The translations under genes were made by a program, and so were the position numbers. This document shows positions 9,103 through 25,013 of a DNA stretch of 34,224 bases, one piece after another. Under the pieces are notes generated by a model. That model did not search any database, had not been told where the DNA came from, and saw nothing but the letters and a program-made list of their open reading frames with translations. Positions within the stretch are counted from its first letter, which is position 1, and each line of letters opens with the position of its first letter. Source of the DNA: Myxococcales bacterium (GTDB lineage: Bacteria > Myxococcota_A > UBA9042); assembly GCA_023954815.1 (NCBI GenBank), contig JAGSHB010000055.1, positions 1 to 34,224 of the forward strand, written 5' to 3'.

Positions 9103-10764
9103 CTACCCGGGCGGCACCGGCGCGTCCGGCCAGAACCGTTTGATCTTCTGCAAGGTGACCTGCCGCTGATCGGCCGGAACCACGGTCGGATCAGCTAGAA
9201 TTCGCCGCGCCTGCTCTTCAAACGGGGGCACGATAGCGCCGCGTTTTTTGAGCTCAGCCATCAAGGGTGCATCCCAACTCGCCAGGAAGACGGTGGTGTG
9301 CCCCAGCCGCACGCCGACCTTTGGCACGTATCCCTCCAGCCCGAGGTAACGGAAGGCAAAAGCGCCGAAGACCATGTGCACCCGGCGCTGATCGACCAGG
9401 TAGCTCGGCTTGGCTCGTTTTTCATGACCGACCCGGCCGCGTTGGGCCAACGTCTGGTGGGCAATAGCGTGGTCGGTTAAGCCGGTCTCAGCCTCGATGG
9501 CGATAGGGATCTGTGTGCGATAGACCAGCCGCGCTTGGCCGCCGATGTAGGCCGCCCGCACCGGCAAGTCACGCACGAGCTGCCCGATGACCGATGCGTC
9601 CCGCTCCAGGTGCTTCGACCGCGTCTCGTCGTAGTGCGCACGCTCATCGACGATGCCCTGCACGCTGTCATCCGGCCCCAGCGCGCGGGGGACCAGGGCC
9701 GTGATCAGCACGAGCGCGCCGACCACACCAAGCGCCCGGCGCCGACTTTCCTTCAGCGAAGGCGCCAGCACCCACAGCGACTCCGCCAACGTGATCCACG
9801 CGAAGGGCAGGGCAGGGAGCAACAGGCGACTGTGCATGAAGCCGCCGCCGACCTTGAGCACGTACATCGAAAACGCCGCCGCGATGAGCCAGGCCGACAA
9901 CAAGCGGCGATGGGCGACGGCACCGCCATTTCGCCAGCCCCGCCAGAGCGCCGCGGCGCCCATGACGAAGGCCACAGCGAACAGCGGCAGCTCCGTGATG
10001 AAGAGCCGGACGTAGACGAGGCCCTGTTCCGGCCACCACAGGTTGGCCGACTTGGCGTAGTAGGTATTGGGGAAGAAGTCGCCGTAGGTGTGCATCCGCC
10101 ACAAGGTGAACGGCAGCCAAAAGACCGCAAAACCGGCCGCAAAGCCCAAAGCTGGCTTGCTGTTTGCCCGGAGTTCGTCGCGCGATGTGGCGACGAGCAG
10201 CGTCAGCCCCACCAGGGCGGCGACCAGCAGGCTGTCGGGCCGCGTCATCGTAGCAAAGGCCAGCACTACTCCCGCCGCACTCGCCGCGCCGACGGTCGTT
10301 CGCCTATCTCGCGTGGCCAGATGCCAGCCGATGACCAGCAGCAAGATGTCCAGGGAGGTCTCGAGGCCACCCGTCGCCCAAATCTGCAGCGGCCGACTCA
10401 CCACGCACAGCAGCGCAGCCAACGGCAACCTGGGGTCTTGCGCGCCGCGCGCAAGCACCATAACGGTCCCGCCAAAGGCCAGCAGCCCCCACATCGCCGT
10501 CCACAGCTCCGGAGCGACGCCCACCGCCAGCCCGAGGGCGATCCACACCGTCCACAGAAAGTTGGTGTAGCCCTCGACCGACTCGCCGATGTTGAAGATG
10601 AGTCCGTCACCGCGCACGAGATGTTGGGCGTAACGAAACGAGATAAACGCGTCGTCACACACCCAGATCCATCGGGCTGCGAGGGCCATGGCAGCGCCGC
10701 CGAGCAATAGCGGCAGCCAACGAAGACTGCTGACCGATGCGCTACTCTTCTTCACCACCGACAT
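9103..10764 (-). CDS. Polytopic GT-C-type glycosyltransferase-like membrane protein
   Basis: The protein is about 553 residues from the ATG at 10764. Starts at 10776 (ATG) and 10758 (GTG, with GGAG six bases upstream) are also possible, and all overlap the 3' end of the upstream GT51 gene, which implies translational coupling. After a first membrane helix the sequence carries Asp37-Asp38 in CDDAFISFRYAQHL and then NIGESVEGYTNFLW. This DD-plus-VEGYTNFLW signature is typical of GT-C enzymes that use polyprenyl-phosphate sugars, including AftB-like arabinofuranosyltransferase annotations. Around nine or ten further hydrophobic segments follow, then a soluble C-terminal domain of about 180 residues, presumably periplasmic. 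A role in envelope polysaccharide or lipid glycosylation is inferred; donor and acceptor are unknown. Confidence 0.78.
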   Translation of the reverse strand: MSVVKKSSASVSSLRWLPLLLGGAAMALAARWIWVCDDAFISFRYAQHLVRGDGLIFNIGESVEGYTNFLWTVWIALGLAVGVAPELWTAMWGLLAFGGTVMVLARGAQDPRLPLAALLCVVSRPLQIWATGGLETSLDILLLVIGWHLATRDRRTTVGAASAAGVVLAFATMTRPDSLLVAALVGLTLLVATSRDELRANSKPALGFAAGFAVFWLPFTLWRMHTYGDFFPNTYYAKSANLWWPEQGLVYVRLFITELPLFAVAFVMGAAALWRGWRNGGAVAHRRLLSAWLIAAAFSMYVLKVGGGFMHSRLLLPALPFAWITLAESLWVLAPSLKESRRRALGVVGALVLITALVPRALGPDDSVQGIVDERAHYDETRSKHLERDASVIGQLVRDLPVRAAYIGGQARLVYRTQIPIAIEAETGLTDHAIAHQTLAQRGRVGHEKRAKPSYLVDQRRVHMVFGAFAFRYLGLEGYVPKVGVRLGHTTVFLASWDAPLMAELKKRGAIVPPFEEQARRILADPTVVPADQRQVTLQKIKRFWPDAPVPPG

Positions 10765-13700
10765 CTCCACCGCCATCCGGGCCCGGCGCACTGGCCTGAG
10801 GCCACCCGACAAACTTCGGCACATAGGGCGCCTCGGCGGTGAACTGCTCCTCGGTGATGATGTTGTTGATCCGCATCTTGTTCATGATGCCGACCATCCG
10901 CTCTTGCCACCACGCGGTCCATTTCTTCTGCTCAAAGCGCTTGTGACCACACTTGGGGCAGGGCTTGTTGGCGGCCAAAAAGGCGGATTCCAGGGGCGTG
11001 AGTTCGCTAGCGTCTTTGTCGAAGTAGAGCTTGGCGCCGCGCTGGATACCGTACAGGTTGGGCGAAAACTCGATGCCGTTGATGTACAGCTCCAAGATGC
11101 GATCTTTGATCGGCTGGGCGTCGTCCTCGGCCTGCGCCAGCTTCTCGGCCGAGATGAGATTACGCTCCATATGCCAGACGATGAGCAGCTCCTCGAACTT
11201 GCGGCCGAGGTACTTCTCGCGGGTGAGGAAGATGTTCTTCACCAGCTGCTGGGTGATGGTCGAGCCGCCGTAGACAAAGCGCCCATAGTCGAGACACATC
11301 TTGATGGCGCGTGAGGTCAGGCCGAGGCGCACGCCTTTGTGATGGTAAAAGGCGGCGTCTTCCGTCGAGATCATGGCATACGGCACCCACGGCGGCAGCT
11401 TCTCGAGCGGCACCCAGGCCTCGCTCCGTGGCCCGATGAGCTGATCTTCCAAGATGGTGCCGTTTTCGTTCACTGGCCGTTTGAAGGGTTTGGCCAGCGC
11501 CTCCACATCCAGCTCGCCAAATTGGGTCACGGTGCAGTTTTCGTCGTTGAGGTGCGCCTTCAGCTTGCCCTTGTAAGGATTGCCGAGCGGGATCGTCAGA
11601 TCGAAGTTGCCGGAGATTTCCCCTTCCGCCGCGATCTTGCCGATGGTCGGCACCAGCGACGCCGGGATCGCCTCGCCGACCTTCTTGCAGTCTTGTTCGG
11701 GCGCTTCGATCCGCAGGTGGACCGTCGGCCGCGTCCGCAACTTGAGCACTTCAAAGGTGATGTTGAGCTTGGCGCCGCCCACATCCACGTCGGTGAGCAG
11801 CAGCTGCATCTGGCGGCCGTCGGTGTTGAACTTCTTTTTCCGCTTCTTCTTCTTCTTTTTCCGCGCTTTCTTCCGAGATTTTCGGGGTTTTTCGGGCTTC
11901 GGCTCCGGCGGGGGCTTGAGCTTCTTGTCAGCCACGACGAGCTTCATTTTCCCGCCAAATGAGAAGTCATCGATGGGCCGCGGCGCGATTCGCCACCAGT
12001 TCACGCCGACATGGTCGACCCGCAATGTGCCCGCCAACAACAGCTCCTTGGCCCCCGTCGTAGTCAGCTTGAGGTCGAGTTTGAGGTTGGCGTCCTTCTG
12101 AACGCTCGCCGCTTTGCCCAAGGTCGACAGCGCCCGGGCCCATCCGCCGCCGCCGAGGGCCAGCGTCGCGTGGGAGAGCTCGCCGGCCGATCCCGCCTGT
12201 ACATCGACGTTGACTGTCCCCCAGCTCTCGGCATCAACGAAGGGTTCAACGCTCAGCTGCAGGCTGCGGCTACCGTCGCTCAGGGCCGGGCTCAGGTGCA
12301 CCGTGCCGGCGCGCAAGCCAGCGGTTGGCTTCGTCGCGGCGGGGGGCAGCAGGCCAATCCGGCCGCCCGTGATCTTGATCTCAAAAGGCACCAAGCGGGC
12401 CAGCTTGGCGAAGGCCCGCTTGAACCCGCCATCGATACCGAGGAGGCGGCGGTGCAGCTTGCGCAATGGCGCTTCGGCCGCCTTGGTCGCAGGGATCCGT
12501 TTGCCGCGTCGCCGGCGCCGTCGCTTCTTCTTGGCCTTCTTGGCCTTGTCGGCTTTGGCGCTCGACTTCTTCTTCGCAGCCCCATCGACCGTCTCATCGC
12601 TGCCTTCCGTCTCGGCGTCCTGGTCCGGATCTGCGGGCTGATCGCCATTGCCGCGCAGCCGCTCGACTCCCCAGTACAGCCCGCGGCCGCCTGGCAGGGT
12701 CCTCAGGCCGCTCTCCCGCCAGCGCACATCCAACGCCGGGCCGTCCACCAGCACCTGCGACAGCCGCTTGTCCGTCCGATTGGCGATGAGCGTCAGCCGT
12801 TTGGCGCTCACCGCGCCCATATCTGCTGGCAGCGGGGCGTTCAGGCCGTCTGCTCGCAGTTCAACCCGCCCGCCGCTGGCCATGATGATCGTCAGCGAAG
12901 CCAGATTCGCAGTCCATTTTGCAGCGCTCGGCGGCCACATCTGGGGCGCGCCTTTCGCCCTGCCGGCATCCCGCGACTCGCCAGGCGTTGGGCTCGCCGG
13001 CTTGTCTTGCCCACCCTTGGCTGTCTTTTTCCGGCTGTGCTTCGTCAATGCGGCCATGACCTGCAAGGCCGTGGCGTGGGGCAACATCACCTTCACCGGT
13101 CCGAGACGGACGCCTTGCCCATCCGATGGGGCCTTGGCCTGGTCATCGGGCTGGTTTGCCGATGGTTGTTGGTCTGTGCCGGCCTCAGGCGCGGCGGCTT
13201 GCCACGGTGCGATGCGCGCGATCTGTACGAGCGCCTGCTCGCCATCCCGCAGGGCGACGCCCTCCACGCGGGGGCCATCGACGCTGTCATAGCCAAATCC
13301 GGCGACCGTCAGGGCCAAGGCGGGCAGCCCCTTCATCTTGGGCAGCGCCAACCGCATCTCGGGGGCAAACCGCGCGGCGACCTTGGCGGGCTGGTCGCCA
13401 CTGGCAGGGATGAGCTTCGCGCTGAGTTTGGCCGACGTCGATCCGCTCAGCGTGCCCGTCACCACGCCCTTACCACCGGCCGTATCGATGTCGATCTGCA
13501 TCGCCGACAGCTTGAGACCCTTGGGGAGGAACTGGGCGCCTTTGCCCCTCACTGTGACCGAAATCTCACCGCCAGCGACCGCGATGGCCGTGCCCGATTT
13601 ACGCTTTTTCGCTGTGTTTGCAGGCTTATTGCCGCGTTTCGGCCTCAAGACCTGTTTGGCCGCCTTCGCCAACTGCAGCAGTTCAGCGGGCCGGCCATCG

Positions 13701-14044
13701 ACCACTCGCATCTGCACCTTGAGGCCTTCGACCGTCAGACGCTCCGGCCTGCGGCTCCCCGCCAGCGCGCGCATGGGCGACAGCTCTCCGACGGCGCGAT
13801 CGAAGCTCACCACCGGCTTGCCGTCCGCCCTTGAAAAGACGAGGCCCGTGAGGGTGGCTGTCCCCAGCGGGCTCACGCTGACGCCATCGTGACTCAGCTT
13901 GAGTTCGGCAACTTGGGCGATGCGCTCCAGCCGCGTCTCTAGCTGCTTGGCCCCATAAAGGGAGCCGCCGACCACCGCGCCAGCTATGACCACGAGCAAT
14001 ACGGCGCCGCCAATCAGACCAATCCGTCTTGTCTTGCTCGCCAT
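10742..14044 (-). CDS. AsmA-like / GT51 peptidoglycan glycosyltransferase fusion
   Basis: The protein is 1100 residues from the ATG at 14044, with AGAGG seven bases upstream; an earlier in-frame ATG at 14107 lacks such a site. One N-terminal membrane helix (about 6-28) is followed by a very long periplasmic region of AsmA/DUF748-like beta repeats (roughly 35-860). The C-terminal GT51 domain keeps all the peptidoglycan transglycosylase motifs: EDAAFYHHKG with catalytic Glu895, GGSTITQQLVKNIFL, the RKFEELLIVWHME helix and KDRILELYINGIEFS. There is no transpeptidase (SxxK/SxN/KTG) domain, so it would polymerise lipid II glycan without cross-linking. Oddities are two extreme Lys/Arg runs (near residues 488-525 and 713-740) and a CPKCGH insertion near residue 1025. 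The GT-C gene overlaps its end. Confidence 0.87.
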   Translation of the reverse strand: MASKTRRIGLIGGAVLLVVIAGAVVGGSLYGAKQLETRLERIAQVAELKLSHDGVSVSPLGTATLTGLVFSRADGKPVVSFDRAVGELSPMRALAGSRRPERLTVEGLKVQMRVVDGRPAELLQLAKAAKQVLRPKRGNKPANTAKKRKSGTAIAVAGGEISVTVRGKGAQFLPKGLKLSAMQIDIDTAGGKGVVTGTLSGSTSAKLSAKLIPASGDQPAKVAARFAPEMRLALPKMKGLPALALTVAGFGYDSVDGPRVEGVALRDGEQALVQIARIAPWQAAAPEAGTDQQPSANQPDDQAKAPSDGQGVRLGPVKVMLPHATALQVMAALTKHSRKKTAKGGQDKPASPTPGESRDAGRAKGAPQMWPPSAAKWTANLASLTIIMASGGRVELRADGLNAPLPADMGAVSAKRLTLIANRTDKRLSQVLVDGPALDVRWRESGLRTLPGGRGLYWGVERLRGNGDQPADPDQDAETEGSDETVDGAAKKKSSAKADKAKKAKKKRRRRRRGKRIPATKAAEAPLRKLHRRLLGIDGGFKRAFAKLARLVPFEIKITGGRIGLLPPAATKPTAGLRAGTVHLSPALSDGSRSLQLSVEPFVDAESWGTVNVDVQAGSAGELSHATLALGGGGWARALSTLGKAASVQKDANLKLDLKLTTTGAKELLLAGTLRVDHVGVNWWRIAPRPIDDFSFGGKMKLVVADKKLKPPPEPKPEKPRKSRKKARKKKKKKRKKKFNTDGRQMQLLLTDVDVGGAKLNITFEVLKLRTRPTVHLRIEAPEQDCKKVGEAIPASLVPTIGKIAAEGEISGNFDLTIPLGNPYKGKLKAHLNDENCTVTQFGELDVEALAKPFKRPVNENGTILEDQLIGPRSEAWVPLEKLPPWVPYAMISTEDAAFYHHKGVRLGLTSRAIKMCLDYGRFVYGGSTITQQLVKNIFLTREKYLGRKFEELLIVWHMERNLISAEKLAQAEDDAQPIKDRILELYINGIEFSPNLYGIQRGAKLYFDKDASELTPLESAFLAANKPCPKCGHKRFEQKKWTAWWQERMVGIMNKMRINNIITEEQFTAEAPYVPKFVGWPQASAPGPDGGGDVGGEEE

Positions 14045-14116
14045 TGAAAACCTCTTGCCTATCCCCAACGTGTAAAGGACCGCCGCTATTTCGTAAATGC
14101 CTGACAAGTCCGCGCC

Positions 14117-17396: not shown

Positions 17397-18884
17397 ATGG
17401 GTGACGTTGACACCAAAGACAGGCCCAAAGGCGACGGTCTACCCGCACAGAAAGTCGGCTTTGCCGCCGCGCTGGGGCTGCTCATGGTGATCGTGAGTTC
17501 GACCACCGCCTTGTACACCGGCTACTTGCTCTGGCGTGGCGATCCCGGCTCCGAAGTCCTCAATACACTGCCAGCGAGCTGTGAGTGGGTCGCGCTCGTT
17601 GAAGATCCAACCGAATTGCGCGCGGCCGCCGCCGATGTGTCGAAGTGGACAGCGTTGCCAGAACCCCTGACCGGTCTCCTTGGGGTTGGTGCGCAGGCGT
17701 TGGCCGACGATCTCACCGCCGCCGCTGGTGCGCTGGACATGGATGGGCCCGCTGGCCTGTGCCGCTGGCGGACCGGGCTCGTGCTGTCCGCTGGTCTGAA
17801 GTCGGATGCGAAAGACGCGGTCGGCACCCTTCAGACGGTGATCGCGAAACGTCTACAACTCGCGTCATCGGGGTGGACGCCGGGCGAGTCCGCCGGTGGT
17901 TTTGTGCAATATGCGCTCGCCGATGAGGCTGGCGCCGTCCGTGTCGCGCTCCTGCAAGGACCGGAGCGCGTGATTGTGGCGTGGGCTGACGCGGGCACTT
18001 CTGCGACAGCGCTGCTCACGGCGATCGTCAAAAAGACCCAAGAGGCGCCAATGCGGGAAGACGTGGCCATTCGGTCGGCTGCTGAGCGTGTCGGGAGTGG
18101 CGCCGTGCAGTTTGCGGCCAATCCGGTCGCGCTCAAGCGCTGGGCAAGCACGTTTCTCAAGGGGCACTATCCCGCCGAGTTGCTCAAGGAACACAGCGAG
18201 TATGCGGGCCTGTCCATCTTGCGCGACAAGGGAGAGACGCACCTGCATCTCCATATCGGAGCGACTCAGAAAGGGGTCCTCTGGCTCAAGTCGGCGATGG
18301 ATCCGATCGGGGCGGTGCCGGCCGCGGTACATCTCGACGCCGACGCGACCGGCGGCGGTGTCTTGCGCCTCAATCCAGAGGGGCTGCGGCGCCGCGGTGC
18401 GTGGTTGGGCAAGCACCCCTGGCTTGGCAAAGTGGCGAGTGCCCTGGGGACGCCATCGCCCGACGTTGCCTATGAGCAGCTGGGCAGCGTGATGACAGGG
18501 CACGTGGTTTGGCAGATGGGTGGTGGTCCTACGCCGTGGCGTATCGCGGCGCAGCTGCGGCCTCAACAGGACGCTGCGGCAAAGACACTCATCGACAAGC
18601 AGCTGCCCAACAGTGGCCTCGGTTTCGCCGTGGGCGGCGGTTGGCTTGTCGCTACGCCAGGTGATCGGTCCGCCGCAAAATCAGCCCTATCGGACCTGAG
18701 CAAGAGCGCAGGGCTAGGCGATCAGCTCTCGGTCGAGCGCACCCGCATGCTGAAGGACAACCAAGGTTTCTACTTGGACAAAAGCAGCCACATCGCACCC
18801 TATATTCACGGACCGGTTCAGTTTGAAGCGCTCTGGTTGCAGACTGGGTTCGTGGCTCACTTGACCTTCCCTTCGCCGGGCTAA
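17397..18884 (+). CDS. Single-pass membrane protein of unknown function
   Basis: The protein is 495 residues. The ATG at 17397 has AGGAGAG directly upstream; the 64-residue in-frame extension to 17205 is Arg/Gly-rich and improbable. After a short polar start (DVDTKDRPKGDG) there is one hydrophobic helix at about residues 22-46, then a long, mostly alanine-, leucine- and valine-rich domain that should lie outside the membrane. I do not recognise a family; the alternating strand/helix pattern and weak internal similarity are reminiscent of DUF3352-type proteins, but I would not assign it. It has no catalytic motif I can point to. Its stop is only 18 bases from the next gene, so it is probably the first gene of an operon with the paralogue pair downstream. 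Confidence 0.8.
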   Translation: MGDVDTKDRPKGDGLPAQKVGFAAALGLLMVIVSSTTALYTGYLLWRGDPGSEVLNTLPASCEWVALVEDPTELRAAAADVSKWTALPEPLTGLLGVGAQALADDLTAAAGALDMDGPAGLCRWRTGLVLSAGLKSDAKDAVGTLQTVIAKRLQLASSGWTPGESAGGFVQYALADEAGAVRVALLQGPERVIVAWADAGTSATALLTAIVKKTQEAPMREDVAIRSAAERVGSGAVQFAANPVALKRWASTFLKGHYPAELLKEHSEYAGLSILRDKGETHLHLHIGATQKGVLWLKSAMDPIGAVPAAVHLDADATGGGVLRLNPEGLRRRGAWLGKHPWLGKVASALGTPSPDVAYEQLGSVMTGHVVWQMGGGPTPWRIAAQLRPQQDAAAKTLIDKQLPNSGLGFAVGGGWLVATPGDRSAAKSALSDLSKSAGLGDQLSVERTRMLKDNQGFYLDKSSHIAPYIHGPVQFEALWLQTGFVAHLTFPSPG

Positions 18885-18902: not shown

Positions 18903-19811
18903 ATGCTCTACAACTACGTATCGATCCTCGACTCCTGCGAGCCGTTCGTCATCGCCCATCGCGGGTTTTCATCCAGCCTACCCACTCAAGTTCGTGGCGT
19001 GACGATCCCGCCCGCCAATATCATCGATCCACAATTGAGCGAACACGCTGATTTTCTAAGATTATTAAGCCACTTGGACAAGTTGTGCTTCGGCCCCAAC
19101 GGCATGTCGATGCCCTCCTGGGTATTTTACGATTGCGCGGTCATGCCCGGCGGTTTCTTCGGTTTCGGCATCCGCGCCGCCGCCTTGGAGCCCTGGTGCC
19201 TGGAGGCCATGGCCGTCCCCGCTGGCTACACGGGCTTGGTTCCGATCAGCCAATTCATCGCGATCCCCATGCTGGGCGGCTTTGCCCACGGCGACGTGCC
19301 CGACACGTGGCTCACCTACTCCGTCGAGTCCATCAACCAAGTCTCGCCGGGATTCGCGCCCGCGGGCATTCTCAAACTCACGTTGGCCCTCGGCCTGCGT
19401 ATCTTTCCGATTCAGACCCTCTATGGGACCACACAGTGGCGGTCGCACAAACTCACCACCTACGTTGACCTGGGTCCGGTTGAGCTGGTCACGGCGTACA
19501 CGCCTGCCCACAGCCTGCCGCGCACCTTCAGCTTTCGCATCGCCATCGAAGACGTGCACCTCGAGACACTGCTTGCCAGCCCGCGCGTTCACCCGACGGC
19601 GCCGCCGCCCAACGCCTGGCTGGACCCCGACGATCGCGACGCGCTGATTCGGCTACAGCACGAGATCGAAGCTGGCGCCAAGGTTCATCTCGTGGGGCAG
19701 CCGCAGCATTACGGTTCGGCGATTCGCATCCCCATTCACCGGCAGCACGCTGGCCAAGCGGCGGTCAGGAAACTAGTCGTGGGTACCGATCAGCGGGGAG
19801 GTGCGGCATGA
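18903..19811 (+). CDS. Unknown-family protein, first of a coupled paralogue pair
   Basis: The protein is 302 residues; the ATG at 18903 has GGGAG about five bases upstream. I do not recognise the family. It has no signal peptide or membrane helix, so it is probably cytoplasmic. It shares a clear set of blocks with its downstream neighbour: an IDP near the N-terminus, FGPNGMSMPSWVFYDCAVMPG, VPISQFIAIPM, GTTQW, then GP followed by TAYTPAHS, and WLDPDD followed by LQHEIEAG. The invariant WVFYDCA-MPG block with one Cys, and the TPAHS block, look like active-site or ligand-site candidates. The stop TGA overlaps the next start in ATGA (19808-19811), which is typical translational coupling and suggests a heteromeric complex. 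Confidence 0.85.
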   Translation: MLYNYVSILDSCEPFVIAHRGFSSSLPTQVRGVTIPPANIIDPQLSEHADFLRLLSHLDKLCFGPNGMSMPSWVFYDCAVMPGGFFGFGIRAAALEPWCLEAMAVPAGYTGLVPISQFIAIPMLGGFAHGDVPDTWLTYSVESINQVSPGFAPAGILKLTLALGLRIFPIQTLYGTTQWRSHKLTTYVDLGPVELVTAYTPAHSLPRTFSFRIAIEDVHLETLLASPRVHPTAPPPNAWLDPDDRDALIRLQHEIEAGAKVHLVGQPQHYGSAIRIPIHRQHAGQAAVRKLVVGTDQRGGAA

Positions 19812-20695
19812 GTCTGTCTTTCGCGATCCGCAACCCCACCTTGATGACCGAATTGGTCCCCTACGTCGTCGCCACACCCTTCAATCTACCGCTGCTCGAT
19901 GTGCAGCCATTCGGCGCCCAGCCGGCTCAGGTCATCGATCCGACGCGTCTCAGTAGCGCGCCATTTCTCGACATCCTCCACCGGCTCGACGGGCTCACCT
20001 TTGGTCCGGAAGGCATGCCGATGCCCAAGTGGGTTTTCTACGATTGTGCGGAGATGCCGGGGGCTATCTACGGTTTGGGGCTGCCCGCGAACCGTCTCTG
20101 GCCCGCCGCGCGCGAGCTCTTCGCGCTGCCCGATGGATACGAGGGGATCGTCCCGCTATCGATGTATATCGCCATCCCCATGCAGACCCGCGGCGTGTGG
20201 TTTGGTCACAACCTGGCCTCGGCTGGCCCCGCCCTCCGTGCCGCTGGTCCCACGGACATCGACCTGCGTGGGCTCGGAAGCGTCACCAAGGGACTGGCGT
20301 TGCGCTGTTTCGGGGTGAAGACCTTCTGGGGGGCGACCCAGTGGTTGTCCAAGGCGTTGTTCATTCATGTGAAATTTGGACCGCTGCGCCTGGCGACCGC
20401 TTGGACGCCAGCCCATTCCGAAAATGAGACGTTGACCTACGGCTTCGATGTGACCGACGACAAGCTGCGCGCGTCCATAGGCGATCGTTCCATCACGCTC
20501 GAGAGGCCGCCCGTCGATTTCTGGCTCGACAGCTCCGACAAAGCGGCGATGCAGGCGTTGCAACATAGGATCGAGGCGGGTGAACGCTTCGTGATCCCTT
20601 CCGCGCCACGTCACGAGGCTGGTGACGTACGCGTGCCGATCGCTGTCGTGCCGAGCAGCGGGCATGGACTTGGCCCCGGACTGGGCAGCGAGTGA
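19808..20695 (+). CDS. Unknown-family protein, second of a coupled paralogue pair
   Basis: The protein is 295 residues, starting in the ATGA overlap with the upstream paralogue; GGGGAGGTG lies just ahead of the ATG. It aligns along its whole length with the 302-residue neighbour: VIDP, FLDILHRLDGLTFGP, GMPMPKWVFYDCAEMPG, VPLSMYIAIPM, GATQW, FGPLRLATAWTPAHS, FWLDSSDKAAMQALQHRIEAG. The middle section (after IAIPM to GATQW) is the most divergent, so the two copies have probably specialised. There is no signal peptide or membrane segment. The function is unknown. A likely trxA promoter follows the stop, marking the end of this three-gene unit. Confidence 0.85.
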   Translation: MSLSFAIRNPTLMTELVPYVVATPFNLPLLDVQPFGAQPAQVIDPTRLSSAPFLDILHRLDGLTFGPEGMPMPKWVFYDCAEMPGAIYGLGLPANRLWPAARELFALPDGYEGIVPLSMYIAIPMQTRGVWFGHNLASAGPALRAAGPTDIDLRGLGSVTKGLALRCFGVKTFWGATQWLSKALFIHVKFGPLRLATAWTPAHSENETLTYGFDVTDDKLRASIGDRSITLERPPVDFWLDSSDKAAMQALQHRIEAGERFVIPSAPRHEAGDVRVPIAVVPSSGHGLGPGLGSE

Positions 20696-20803: not shown

Positions 20804-21133
20804 ATGGCAGGCAAAAACGTGCTGACACTGACGACGACAAACTTCGAGACCGAGGTCGCTAACTCGGATCTGCCCGTATTGGTGGACTTTTGGGCGACGT
20901 GGTGTGGACCGTGTCGCGCCGTCGCTCCGATCGTTGAGCAGCTCGCCGGCGACTACGAAGGTCGCGCGAAGGTCGGCAAGATCGACGTCGACGCCGAGGG
21001 CGAGCTCGCTCGCAAGTTTGGTATCAGCTCGATCCCGACACTGATGGTCTTCAAAGGTGGCGAAGTGGTCGAGCAGGTGCTCGGTGCGCGTCCCAAGAAA
21101 CAACTCGCAGGCATGCTCGACAAGCACGTCTAA
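20804..21133 (+). CDS. trxA: Thioredoxin
   Basis: The protein is 109 residues, the standard length for thioredoxin 1. It reduces protein disulfides in the cytoplasm and is itself recharged by thioredoxin reductase (not in the window). The active site is WCGPC with Cys34 and Cys37, preceded by VDFWATW, and the cis-proline loop is present as SSIPT near residue 75. There is no signal peptide, so it is cytoplasmic rather than an envelope thiol protein. The ATG follows AAGGAGC by about ten bases. It is preceded by a good promoter candidate and followed by a hairpin, so it is probably a single-gene transcript. Confidence 0.97.
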   Translation: MAGKNVLTLTTTNFETEVANSDLPVLVDFWATWCGPCRAVAPIVEQLAGDYEGRAKVGKIDVDAEGELARKFGISSIPTLMVFKGGEVVEQVLGARPKKQLAGMLDKHV

Positions 21134-21147
21134 TTGGCAGTCCGCGT

Positions 21148-21181
21148 CCGTCGCTGGAGCCCTCACTGGCTCCAGCGGCGG
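21148..21181 (+). terminator. Hairpin after trxA
   Basis: A 10-bp perfect stem (CGCTGGAGCC at 21152-21161 with GGCTCCAGCG at 21168-21177, loop of six) extends to 14 pairs including one G-U. It lies 15 bases after the trxA stop. No clear T run follows, so it may stop transcription weakly or protect the 3' end. Confidence 0.6.
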
Positions 21182-21404
21182 ATGTAGGTCGACCCGCGGT
21201 GTTATCCTCGATCGCTCTGGTGGCCGGTGTTTTGTGCTGAGCGCCGAAGCATTGGTCAGCAGCGATGTTGTAGGGCATCCTCCGCTGCGATATGACCACG
21301 CTGGACCCGACAAAAGTGCCTTTGTACATCGTCGTCCGGGCACATTGGTCGTCTAGCCACGCGGACTAGCCACCGCAACGATTGCGGCGGCCTCGGAGCA
21401 GAGA

Positions 21405-22061
21405 ATGAACAAGAACGTAATGATTGGCCTCGGCGCAGTCGTGCTCGCAACCCTCGGTTTCGTGATTTTCGGAATGTCGGGCGCAGATGAGACGAAGGCT
21501 GGCGGCCAGGAAGGCAGCGAGGCGACAGCCGCTGCCACTGCGGGCGATAGCGCCAACGTCAACGCCGACCGCAAGGTGAAAAAGGACGACGAAAAGGCAG
21601 AGGAGCCCAAGGAAGAGAAGAAGGATCTCGCGCTTCCTGGGCAGCTGCCCAAGCTCAACTTGCCGGCCGTCGCACCGACCGCGCTCCCAACAAAGCCGCA
21701 CGGCAAGCTCAAACTAGAAGGCGACTTGCAAGAGGTCGATGCCGAGTTGGCCATTCGCCAGGTCTTCCCGAAGATTCGCTCCTGCTACGTCGAGTTGCGC
21801 CAGCGCGCGCCGCAGGCCAAGGGGCGTATGCTCATGCGATTTCGGGTGAGCAAGAGCGACGACGGGCAAGCCGCCACCGGTGAGCTTTACCTCAAAGAGA
21901 CGCAGTTCACCGACCCGAAGTACCTCTCCTGCATCCGCGACGCCATCGACAAGACCAAGTTCAAGCTCGACAAGTCGGCCGTTAACGGCACGGTGACCTT
22001 CCCGATGCACCTCGCACCCGAGGATGTCGACAAGCACAACAAGGCCGCGGCTGCCAAGTAG
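21405..22061 (+). CDS. AgmX/PglI C-terminal-domain protein (TonB-like periplasmic)
   Basis: The protein is 218 residues. A short Lys/Asn start precedes one hydrophobic helix (about 6-23, IGLGAVVLATLGFVIFGM), which anchors it in the inner membrane. A charged Lys/Glu/Ala linker and a proline-containing segment follow (about 26-100). Residues 110-210 match the AgmX/PglI C-terminal fold of Myxococcota: IRSCYVELRQRAPQAKGRMLMRFRVS, then CIRDAIDKTKFKLD, with the characteristic pair of Cys likely forming a disulfide. In myxobacteria such domains occur in gliding-motility and envelope proteins; the exact role here is unknown. It stands alone between trxA and a convergent crcB. Confidence 0.8.
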   Translation: MNKNVMIGLGAVVLATLGFVIFGMSGADETKAGGQEGSEATAAATAGDSANVNADRKVKKDDEKAEEPKEEKKDLALPGQLPKLNLPAVAPTALPTKPHGKLKLEGDLQEVDAELAIRQVFPKIRSCYVELRQRAPQAKGRMLMRFRVSKSDDGQAATGELYLKETQFTDPKYLSCIRDAIDKTKFKLDKSAVNGTVTFPMHLAPEDVDKHNKAAAAK

Positions 22062-23609: not shown

Positions 23610-25013
23610 ATGATGCGACGTGTCCTCTCTGTATGTTTCGTGATGCTCATCGGCGCCTGTTCGTCGCCCAGCGGCGGTGGCGGCGGCGGTGGTACGTTTA
23701 CGGCAGGTGGCGCCCCGAATACGGCGTGCGATGCGGCATTGTATGGCCAAGGGTGCAGCGGGACCATGCGGGTGACCTGTAGCCCCGACACCAACACGTG
23801 GAAACCGTTGGGTGTTTGCGCGGCCGGTCAGACCTGCATCGGCAAGCCCGACCCGAGCGATCCTCAGAACTTCAAGCAGCTCGCCGAGTGTATTGAAGTT
23901 TCAAGTGCCGCCGACGCAGGCAACACAGGAACTGACGCGACGACATCATCCGATGCCGTCGTGGCCGGCGACGGTGGCTCGGCTATCGACAGTGGTGGGA
24001 CGGTCGGCGTCGACGTCGGGGCCCCCGATTCGGGTTCGTCGGGTGGTGCATGGCTGTCTTGCGTTCAGGGCAAATGCTCATCGCAGTGGGGGGCGTGTAG
24101 TGCCCAAGCGACCTGCAAGACAGCCGCGCTGTGCGTCGACGGCTGCGCTGGCGACAAGAAGTGCCAGCAGATCTGCTTTGACAACACGACCGGCGCCGCG
24201 CAGGACGCGCTGATCTCCGTCATCATGTGCGCCGATCAGACAGGTTGTCAGGCCTCCACGACCGGCCCCAAATGCGGCGATGGCAAGTGCGACGCAGGCG
24301 AAAGTACTGCGACCTGCCCAGGTGACTGCAAACCTGCCGGCCCCAAGTGCGGCGATGGCAAGTGTGACGAAGGCGAAAACAGCGAGACCTGCTCAGCCGA
24401 CTGCAAACCCGTCGGCCCACAATGCGGCAACAACAAATGCGAAGCCGGTGAGACGCCGCAGAGTTGTTTGGCCGACTGCAAGCCACAGTGCGGCGATGGC
24501 AAGTGCGAGTTCGGCGAATCGAAGAACACGTGCGCACAGGACTGTGGCCCGACGACCCAGTGCGGCAACGGTCAATGCGAGACAGGAGAGACTGCCCAGA
24601 CGTGCCCTGTCGATTGCGCGCCCAAACCTGTCTGCGGCAACGGCAAGTGTGAGACCGGCGAGACGGCCTCATCTTGTAAAGCCGATTGCGGCGGCTCTGG
24701 CAGCTGCATTGAGACGAAATGTGGCACGCAGCTAAAGACCTGCACGAATAACCCCAAGTGCACGGCCTTGGTCATGTTTGGCGCGCTGCAGAGCTGCATT
24801 GAAGTCAACAAGTGCAAGGACAGCGCGTGCCTCTCCAGCAAGTGCGCGCAAGAAGGCTCGGGATGCCAGAACGACGCTAGCTGCAACGCCCTTTGGAGTT
24901 GCCTCAGCAATTGTAAGACAGAGAGCTGCCAGCAGGCTTGTTTGGACCAAACGGCCCTCACCCAGTACGACGCGGTCGCAAAATGCGCCAACACCAACTG
25001 CTCAAACGGCTAG
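23610..25013 (+). CDS. Cysteine-rich repeat lipoprotein (six CGDGKC repeats)
   Basis: The protein is 467 residues, with two ATGs in tandem at the start. The signal peptide VLSVCFVMLIGAC has its lipid-anchored Cys at residue 17, followed by a glycine tract. In order: an N-terminal Cys domain (about 36-95), a flexible Thr/Ser/Asp/Gly linker (about 98-148), a helical Cys module (WLSCVQGKC onward, to about 212), six tandem repeats (222-360) of C-G-[DN]-x2-C-[DE]-x-G-E-x4-C-x2-D-C, and one or two further helical Cys modules to the end. It is extracytoplasmic and almost certainly disulfide-bonded. The repeat style is common in Myxococcota surface proteins. The binding target is unknown. The next gene, 21 bases on, is a paralogue. 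Confidence 0.85.
   Translation: MMRRVLSVCFVMLIGACSSPSGGGGGGGTFTAGGAPNTACDAALYGQGCSGTMRVTCSPDTNTWKPLGVCAAGQTCIGKPDPSDPQNFKQLAECIEVSSAADAGNTGTDATTSSDAVVAGDGGSAIDSGGTVGVDVGAPDSGSSGGAWLSCVQGKCSSQWGACSAQATCKTAALCVDGCAGDKKCQQICFDNTTGAAQDALISVIMCADQTGCQASTTGPKCGDGKCDAGESTATCPGDCKPAGPKCGDGKCDEGENSETCSADCKPVGPQCGNNKCEAGETPQSCLADCKPQCGDGKCEFGESKNTCAQDCGPTTQCGNGQCETGETAQTCPVDCAPKPVCGNGKCETGETASSCKADCGGSGSCIETKCGTQLKTCTNNPKCTALVMFGALQSCIEVNKCKDSACLSSKCAQEGSGCQNDASCNALWSCLSNCKTESCQQACLDQTALTQYDAVAKCANTNCSNG
24273..24689 (+). repeat. Six in-frame cysteine-repeat units
   Basis: Six copies of a 19-residue core plus a linker of about 3-6 residues lie in tandem, the first beginning at C222 and the last ending at C360. 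The codons are also similar between copies (TGCGGC..TGGCAAGTGCGA), which points to expansion by recent duplication and could support unequal recombination. Confidence 0.9.

Follow-up and report, generated by a model that had tools for sequence, protein, structure and literature searches.

A translationally coupled pair of paralogues with predicted GNAT-like folds in Myxococcota: a proposed acyltransferase of one catalytic and one non-catalytic subunit

The window analysed here is a stretch of 34,224 nucleotides from a Myxococcales bacterium, in which two adjacent genes of an unnamed family lie on the forward strand. Gene A (18903..19811, +) encodes 302 aa and gene B (19808..20695, +) encodes 295 aa. 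The two are joined by an ATGA stop/start overlap (19808..19811, +), with the ATG of B at 19808-19810 and the TGA of A at 19809-19811, a layout of translational coupling, and purine-rich, ribosome-binding-like stretches lie 5' of both starts (GGGAG for A, GGGGAGG for B). The products are homologous, with 39% identity over 247 aa in BLASTP (179 bits, E=3e-59), far above chance, and are the sole two family members in this genome. The original prediction, made from the DNA letters, had described a pair of adjacent, overlapping paralogues, and both the coordinates and the BLASTP score bear this out. Every conserved block that it quoted is found in the sequences, and the stretch it singled out as divergent, between the IAIPM and TQW blocks, does diverge. 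The 18-nt gap that it reported between A and the end (18884) of an upstream gene (17397..18884, +), whose product has an N-terminal hydrophobic segment, is also there.

Neither A, B nor the upstream protein matches any Pfam or NCBIfam model, even at E<=10, and 66 family members searched against Pfam gave scattered weak matches only. A profile search of PDB sequences returned nothing credible. PADLOC gave no match, which leaves a reading of the pair as a defence system unsupported, and we reject it; the idea of viral relatives was likewise dropped, as none were found in viral contigs with B as the query. Members of the family occur widely across Myxococcota and Bdellovibrionota. Carriers make up 31 of the 52 genomes of the window's class and 105 of the 379 sampled across the phylum, and those outside the class are mostly single-copy. 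GTDB contigs were scanned with one motif as the pattern, which would miss relatives lacking it, and this gave 132 relatives; the best 80 of these 132 were kept, and by database label they are Myxococcota and Bdellovibrionota, with a few labels vague or evidently belonging to mislabelled MAGs. The result is an unnamed family, probably of enzymes, spread across two phyla known for predatory bacteria.

Intact A genes are present at 42 loci of the alignment, and B comes immediately after A on the same strand at 41 of them; at the odd one (L062) the contig ends and cuts off the neighbour of A. In the relatives measured, A and B overlap or are separated by a short gap. The tree, built from 170 members, places every A protein in a single clade (support 0.97) and groups the B proteins together as well, the latter with low support. 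The A clade is kept when the motif columns are removed (support 0.98), so that sorting by Lys161, the residue that defines the B-type group discussed below, is not the source of the pattern. Both genes are under constraint, with NG86 dN/dS against three relatives of 0.09-0.17 (A) and 0.07-0.20 (B); most of these comparisons, however, have a dS that exceeds 1, and for the most distant relative it is saturated. The low values for A indicate a gene under purifying selection and not one in decay. In a single genome (G032; L046 8434-10332) the pair, separate at the 41 loci above, is fused into one frame of 632 aa, in which the A half comes first and is eroded while the B half is intact; the fusion supports a physical association of A and B, although an assembly error is possible. 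The A half of this fusion keeps W75, D79 and C80 and has lost K161, H187, H203, Y211 and the TQW block.

The two subfamilies differ in which conserved residues they retain. Here, 127 B and single-copy proteins from the two phyla, grouped by their possession of K161 (K-type proteins; positions in B numbering), were compared with the 42 intact A proteins. K161 is present in 127/127 K-type proteins, as the defining residue, vs 0/42 A proteins. Glycine or alanine at position 157 is found in 127/127 vs 3/42, being lost in 39 A proteins and replaced mostly by bulky residues, and G155 is found in 112 of the 127 K-type proteins. Among the 125 K-type proteins with sequence at the sites concerned, H187 and Y211 are present in every one; the former is lost in 39 of the A proteins (kept in 3/42) and the latter in 40 (kept in 2/42). 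At position 187 the A proteins vary between Y, F, H, L, P and T, with Tyr in 29/42. Other positions are shared by both subfamilies: H203 (125/125 K-type, 42/42 A), Q178 (125/125 and 41/42) and W75, which is invariant in both (42/42 in A). In the window, the B segment R154-K161 (RGLGSVTK; 20267..20290, +) is the predicted CoA-pyrophosphate loop, located at the start of a3, with G155-L161 of A (GILKLTL; 19365..19385, +) as its degenerate counterpart; the region of divergence that runs from IAIPM to TQW thus corresponds to the predicted b4/CoA-loop/a3 segment. His187 of B (20366..20368, +) lies on the predicted a4, in register with the Tyr that is the general acid of GNATs, His203 (20414..20416, +) is in the TPAHS block, Tyr211 (20438..20440, +) is on b7, and W75 to D79-C80 (WVFYDC; 20030..20047, +) lie at a2.

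AlphaFold2 models, each built from an alignment of family members, have a mean pLDDT of 91.9 for A and for B, and in both the predicted fold follows the strand and helix order of GNATs. All of the 50 PDB matches listed by Foldseek for each model are GNAT-fold acyltransferases, N-terminal acetyltransferases included, or complexes containing one, among them Coxiella CBU0801, RimI, Gcn5, Naa60, Naa50 and the acyl-homoserine lactone (AHL) synthases BjaI and RpaI, with best E-values of 3.7e-5 (B) and 8.3e-5 (A). The TM-scores are moderate, reaching 0.69 (B) and 0.67 (A) when normalised by target; normalised by query, those of the best hits are ~0.35-0.41, below 0.5. The rmsd is 4 A or more. An acetoacetate decarboxylase-like fold, our first idea from the sequence pattern, was discarded, there being no such enzyme among the 50 hits listed per model. 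BjaI and RpaI, which are CoA-dependent and take an acyl-CoA donor, align over 215-240 columns, but no match to them was detected at the sequence level, and none of the genes flanking the pair was recognised as a quorum-sensing gene. The original prediction could not place the pair in a known family, and this stands for the model libraries of Pfam, NCBIfam and PADLOC but not for the predicted fold, by which both proteins match GNAT acetyltransferases. An hhalign comparison of the family with the 17 GNATs of the window genome was not significant (probability ~1% or less), so the GNAT placement, which we consider likely, is one made by fold. The same output sets GLGxxTK opposite the GNAT P-loop and an A..H..G motif opposite A..Y..G. 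GNATs bind the CoA pyrophosphate through a Q/R-x-x-G-x-G/A loop, often with a Tyr as general acid, and atypical P-loops are known among them (PMC4964394). The loop of the present family has the G-x-G/A and lacks the Q/R of the canonical P-loop, and B-type proteins have His where GNATs usually have Tyr. It is unlikely, in our judgement, that the likeness in fold is incidental and that A and B make up some enzyme other than an acyltransferase, or a complex with a structural or regulatory role. The silence of the sequence profiles, the TM-scores by query and the missing Q/R would fit such a reading, but the predicted topology is complete, all listed matches of the two models are or contain a GNAT-fold protein, and the conserved loop and A..H..G motif fall in GNAT register.

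The explanation that we favour, with a probability of roughly 0.6, is that A and B form a heteromeric acyltransferase, with B as the catalytic and A as the non-catalytic subunit, and that their GNAT-fold family is a new and divergent one. B, which keeps all family-invariant residues, would bind acyl-CoA through the b4-a3 loop (G-x-G/A and then K161) and may carry out catalysis with H187, H203 and Y211 on what we infer to be a small metabolite. A would be a duplicated copy in which the core of the CoA loop and three residues (K161, H187 and Y211) were lost and the fold, W75, Q178, W179 and H203 were kept, and its proposed role is that of an obligate partner of B, either structural or shaping the substrate. 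Because most of the active-site-like residues are lost at all 42 loci, A is probably a helper subunit. The suggestion of specialised subunits in the original prediction has good evidence in the strict A-then-B adjacency, the single ancient split, the asymmetric loss of residues and the one fusion. A single duplication, with most of the active-site-like residues then lost from one copy that nonetheless stayed coupled to the other, would amount to a clear natural experiment.

The nearest likeness to such an arrangement is PamZ of Paenibacillus larvae, in which, as in PDB 3G3S, a degenerate GNAT without a P-loop precedes an active one, and the N-terminal unit of PamZ shapes the substrate groove (PMC9054821). 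In both of these the P-loop is found only in the active unit, just as the loop residues are kept in B and degenerate in A, and the domain order of the G032 fusion is that of PamZ. PamZ is a single chain of ~275 aa with domains of ~130 aa, whereas the pair consists of separate, coupled genes whose products, at ~300 aa apiece, carry an additional C-terminal region and gave no sequence-level match to GNATs. MshD (N-terminal domain inactive; PMC9054821), Eis and other double GNATs also resemble the pair in having duplicated units of which one is inactive (PMC9054821; PMC12219266; PMC4964394), and further double GNATs are listed in PMC12219266. They differ from it in being single-chain, and the pair has no family match of its own in Pfam or NCBIfam. 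The double GNATs of these papers (PMC9054821; PMC12219266; PMC4964394) are single chains, and a split pair would depart from them. If a split pseudo/active GNAT pair is indeed what A and B are, the role of the degenerate unit could be tested by simple co-expression.

AruF and AruG are two paralogous subunits encoded by adjacent genes. AruFG, of the AstA family, succinylates arginine and ornithine (PMC9007349), and this precedent raises the alternative that A and B are both active, with different donors or acceptors, and that A is no pseudo-subunit. A could indeed carry a different activity, as it often has the usual Tyr at the GNAT general-acid position (29/42) and keeps W75, D79, Q178 and H203. 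We think it improbable that both are active, however, given that 39 of the 42 A proteins have lost the loop-core G/A, that position 187 varies as under relaxed constraint, that nearly all signature residues are gone from the A half of the fusion, and that the AstA model (PF04958) has no match to the family in Pfam at E<=10.

For B as the catalytic and A as the helper subunit, hints of a substrate come from neighbouring genes, which were called mechanically in genomes that are mostly MAGs with approximate gene starts. Ornithine carbamoyltransferase lies directly upstream of the family gene at L100, L106 and L109 in Bdellovibrionota and L176 and L200 in Myxococcota, as identified by NCBIfam, and at L194 and L201 in Myxococcota by phmmer only. 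At L106 arginine deiminase comes next, followed by carbamate kinase, a catabolic set. L098 holds a cluster of argC, argB and the family gene, and L095 has the order A, B, carbamate kinase, aspartate carbamoyltransferase, the last of which had been a candidate ornithine carbamoyltransferase and was reassigned. By homology, ornithine carbamoyltransferase or carbamate kinase lies within 8 kb of 17 of the 127 non-redundant loci, L095 entering with its aspartate carbamoyltransferase and a true carbamate kinase; from genome size we estimate that random placement would give well under 1%. The recurrence of these genes is a hint of a role in the metabolism of arginine or carbamoyl phosphate, and the substrate may possibly belong to arginine, ornithine or carbamoyl-phosphate metabolism. 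Our claim goes no further than a metabolic acyltransferase that is linked, in several lineages, to arginine or carbamoyl phosphate. The neighbours differ between lineages, with fumC upstream in Bdellovibrionaceae and purB-purC in part of the window's family. A FumC shared by the two phyla was considered and discarded, as the clustering had merged a superfamily: the gene in the window's family is purB (adenylosuccinate lyase), and that of Bdellovibrionaceae is a true fumC. Among the Bdellovibrionaceae loci L112-L145, there is a conserved order of SDR, fumC, in some cases LOG, the single-copy family gene, a small Cys-rich protein (c7) and a UvrD-type helicase. Upstream at L086, L095, L198 and L199 is a protein of ~460 aa that by eye resembles GTPases of the cyclic 2,3-diphosphoglycerate synthase type; the one at L199 had no NCBIfam hit at 1e-10.

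The same neighbourhoods bear on the idea that the family represents an N-acetylglutamate synthase (NAGS) not recognised as such, or another acetyltransferase dedicated to making arginine. The argC-argB cluster at L098 and the seven loci with ornithine carbamoyltransferase upstream speak for this, as does the window genome, in which argC and argB lie together (G000:C118, L207), ArgJ and classical ArgA were not found, and no NAGS equivalog occurs among the 10 of its 17 PF00583 GNATs that were scanned. We nonetheless find it doubtful. ArgB is absent from 7 of the 16 family-bearing Bdellovibrionota, one of them with a contig of 3.26 Mb, so that NAGS cannot be the function everywhere and is weakened as a general one; ArgJ is also present in many family-bearing genomes, and the context at L106 is catabolic. 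With ArgB missing in these genomes and neighbours that vary, assignment to a single pathway is not justified. There is a slim chance that the two ideas combine, in an obligate active/inactive GNAT heteromer whose acylation of an amino acid is the missing NAGS step, or a related arginine or ornithine step, in Myxococcota without ArgA and ArgJ. For the broader reading of a catalytic B with a non-catalytic A, a proven substrate would give a name to genes that no family library covers now.

The original prediction had also suggested that the upstream membrane gene may form one three-component system with A and B, and we set this aside as highly improbable, for although the gene lies 18 nt away on the same strand and its homologues abut A in the same order in eight genomes of the window's family (the window's own, G001-G004, G006, G009 and G014), it is on the opposite strand and divergent in G013, it is separated from A by purB-purC in other members of that family, and searches of the neighbourhood in other families, and of that of single-copy members, did not find it. 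It is thus not a stable partner of the pair. Several other genes of the window are recorded here as observations in their own right. On the 3' side of the pair, 20804-22061 (+) holds the genes of a thioredoxin and of a small protein that looks exported, an order kept by many of the genomes in the window's family. A frame of 1121 aa on the reverse strand (10742-14107, -) appears by eye to have a C-terminal part like GT51 peptidoglycan transglycosylases fused to a long N-terminal part rich in Lys/Arg tracts. Further downstream, 23610-25013 (+) encodes a secreted-looking protein with repeated Cys-rich units of the CGDGKCDAGES type.
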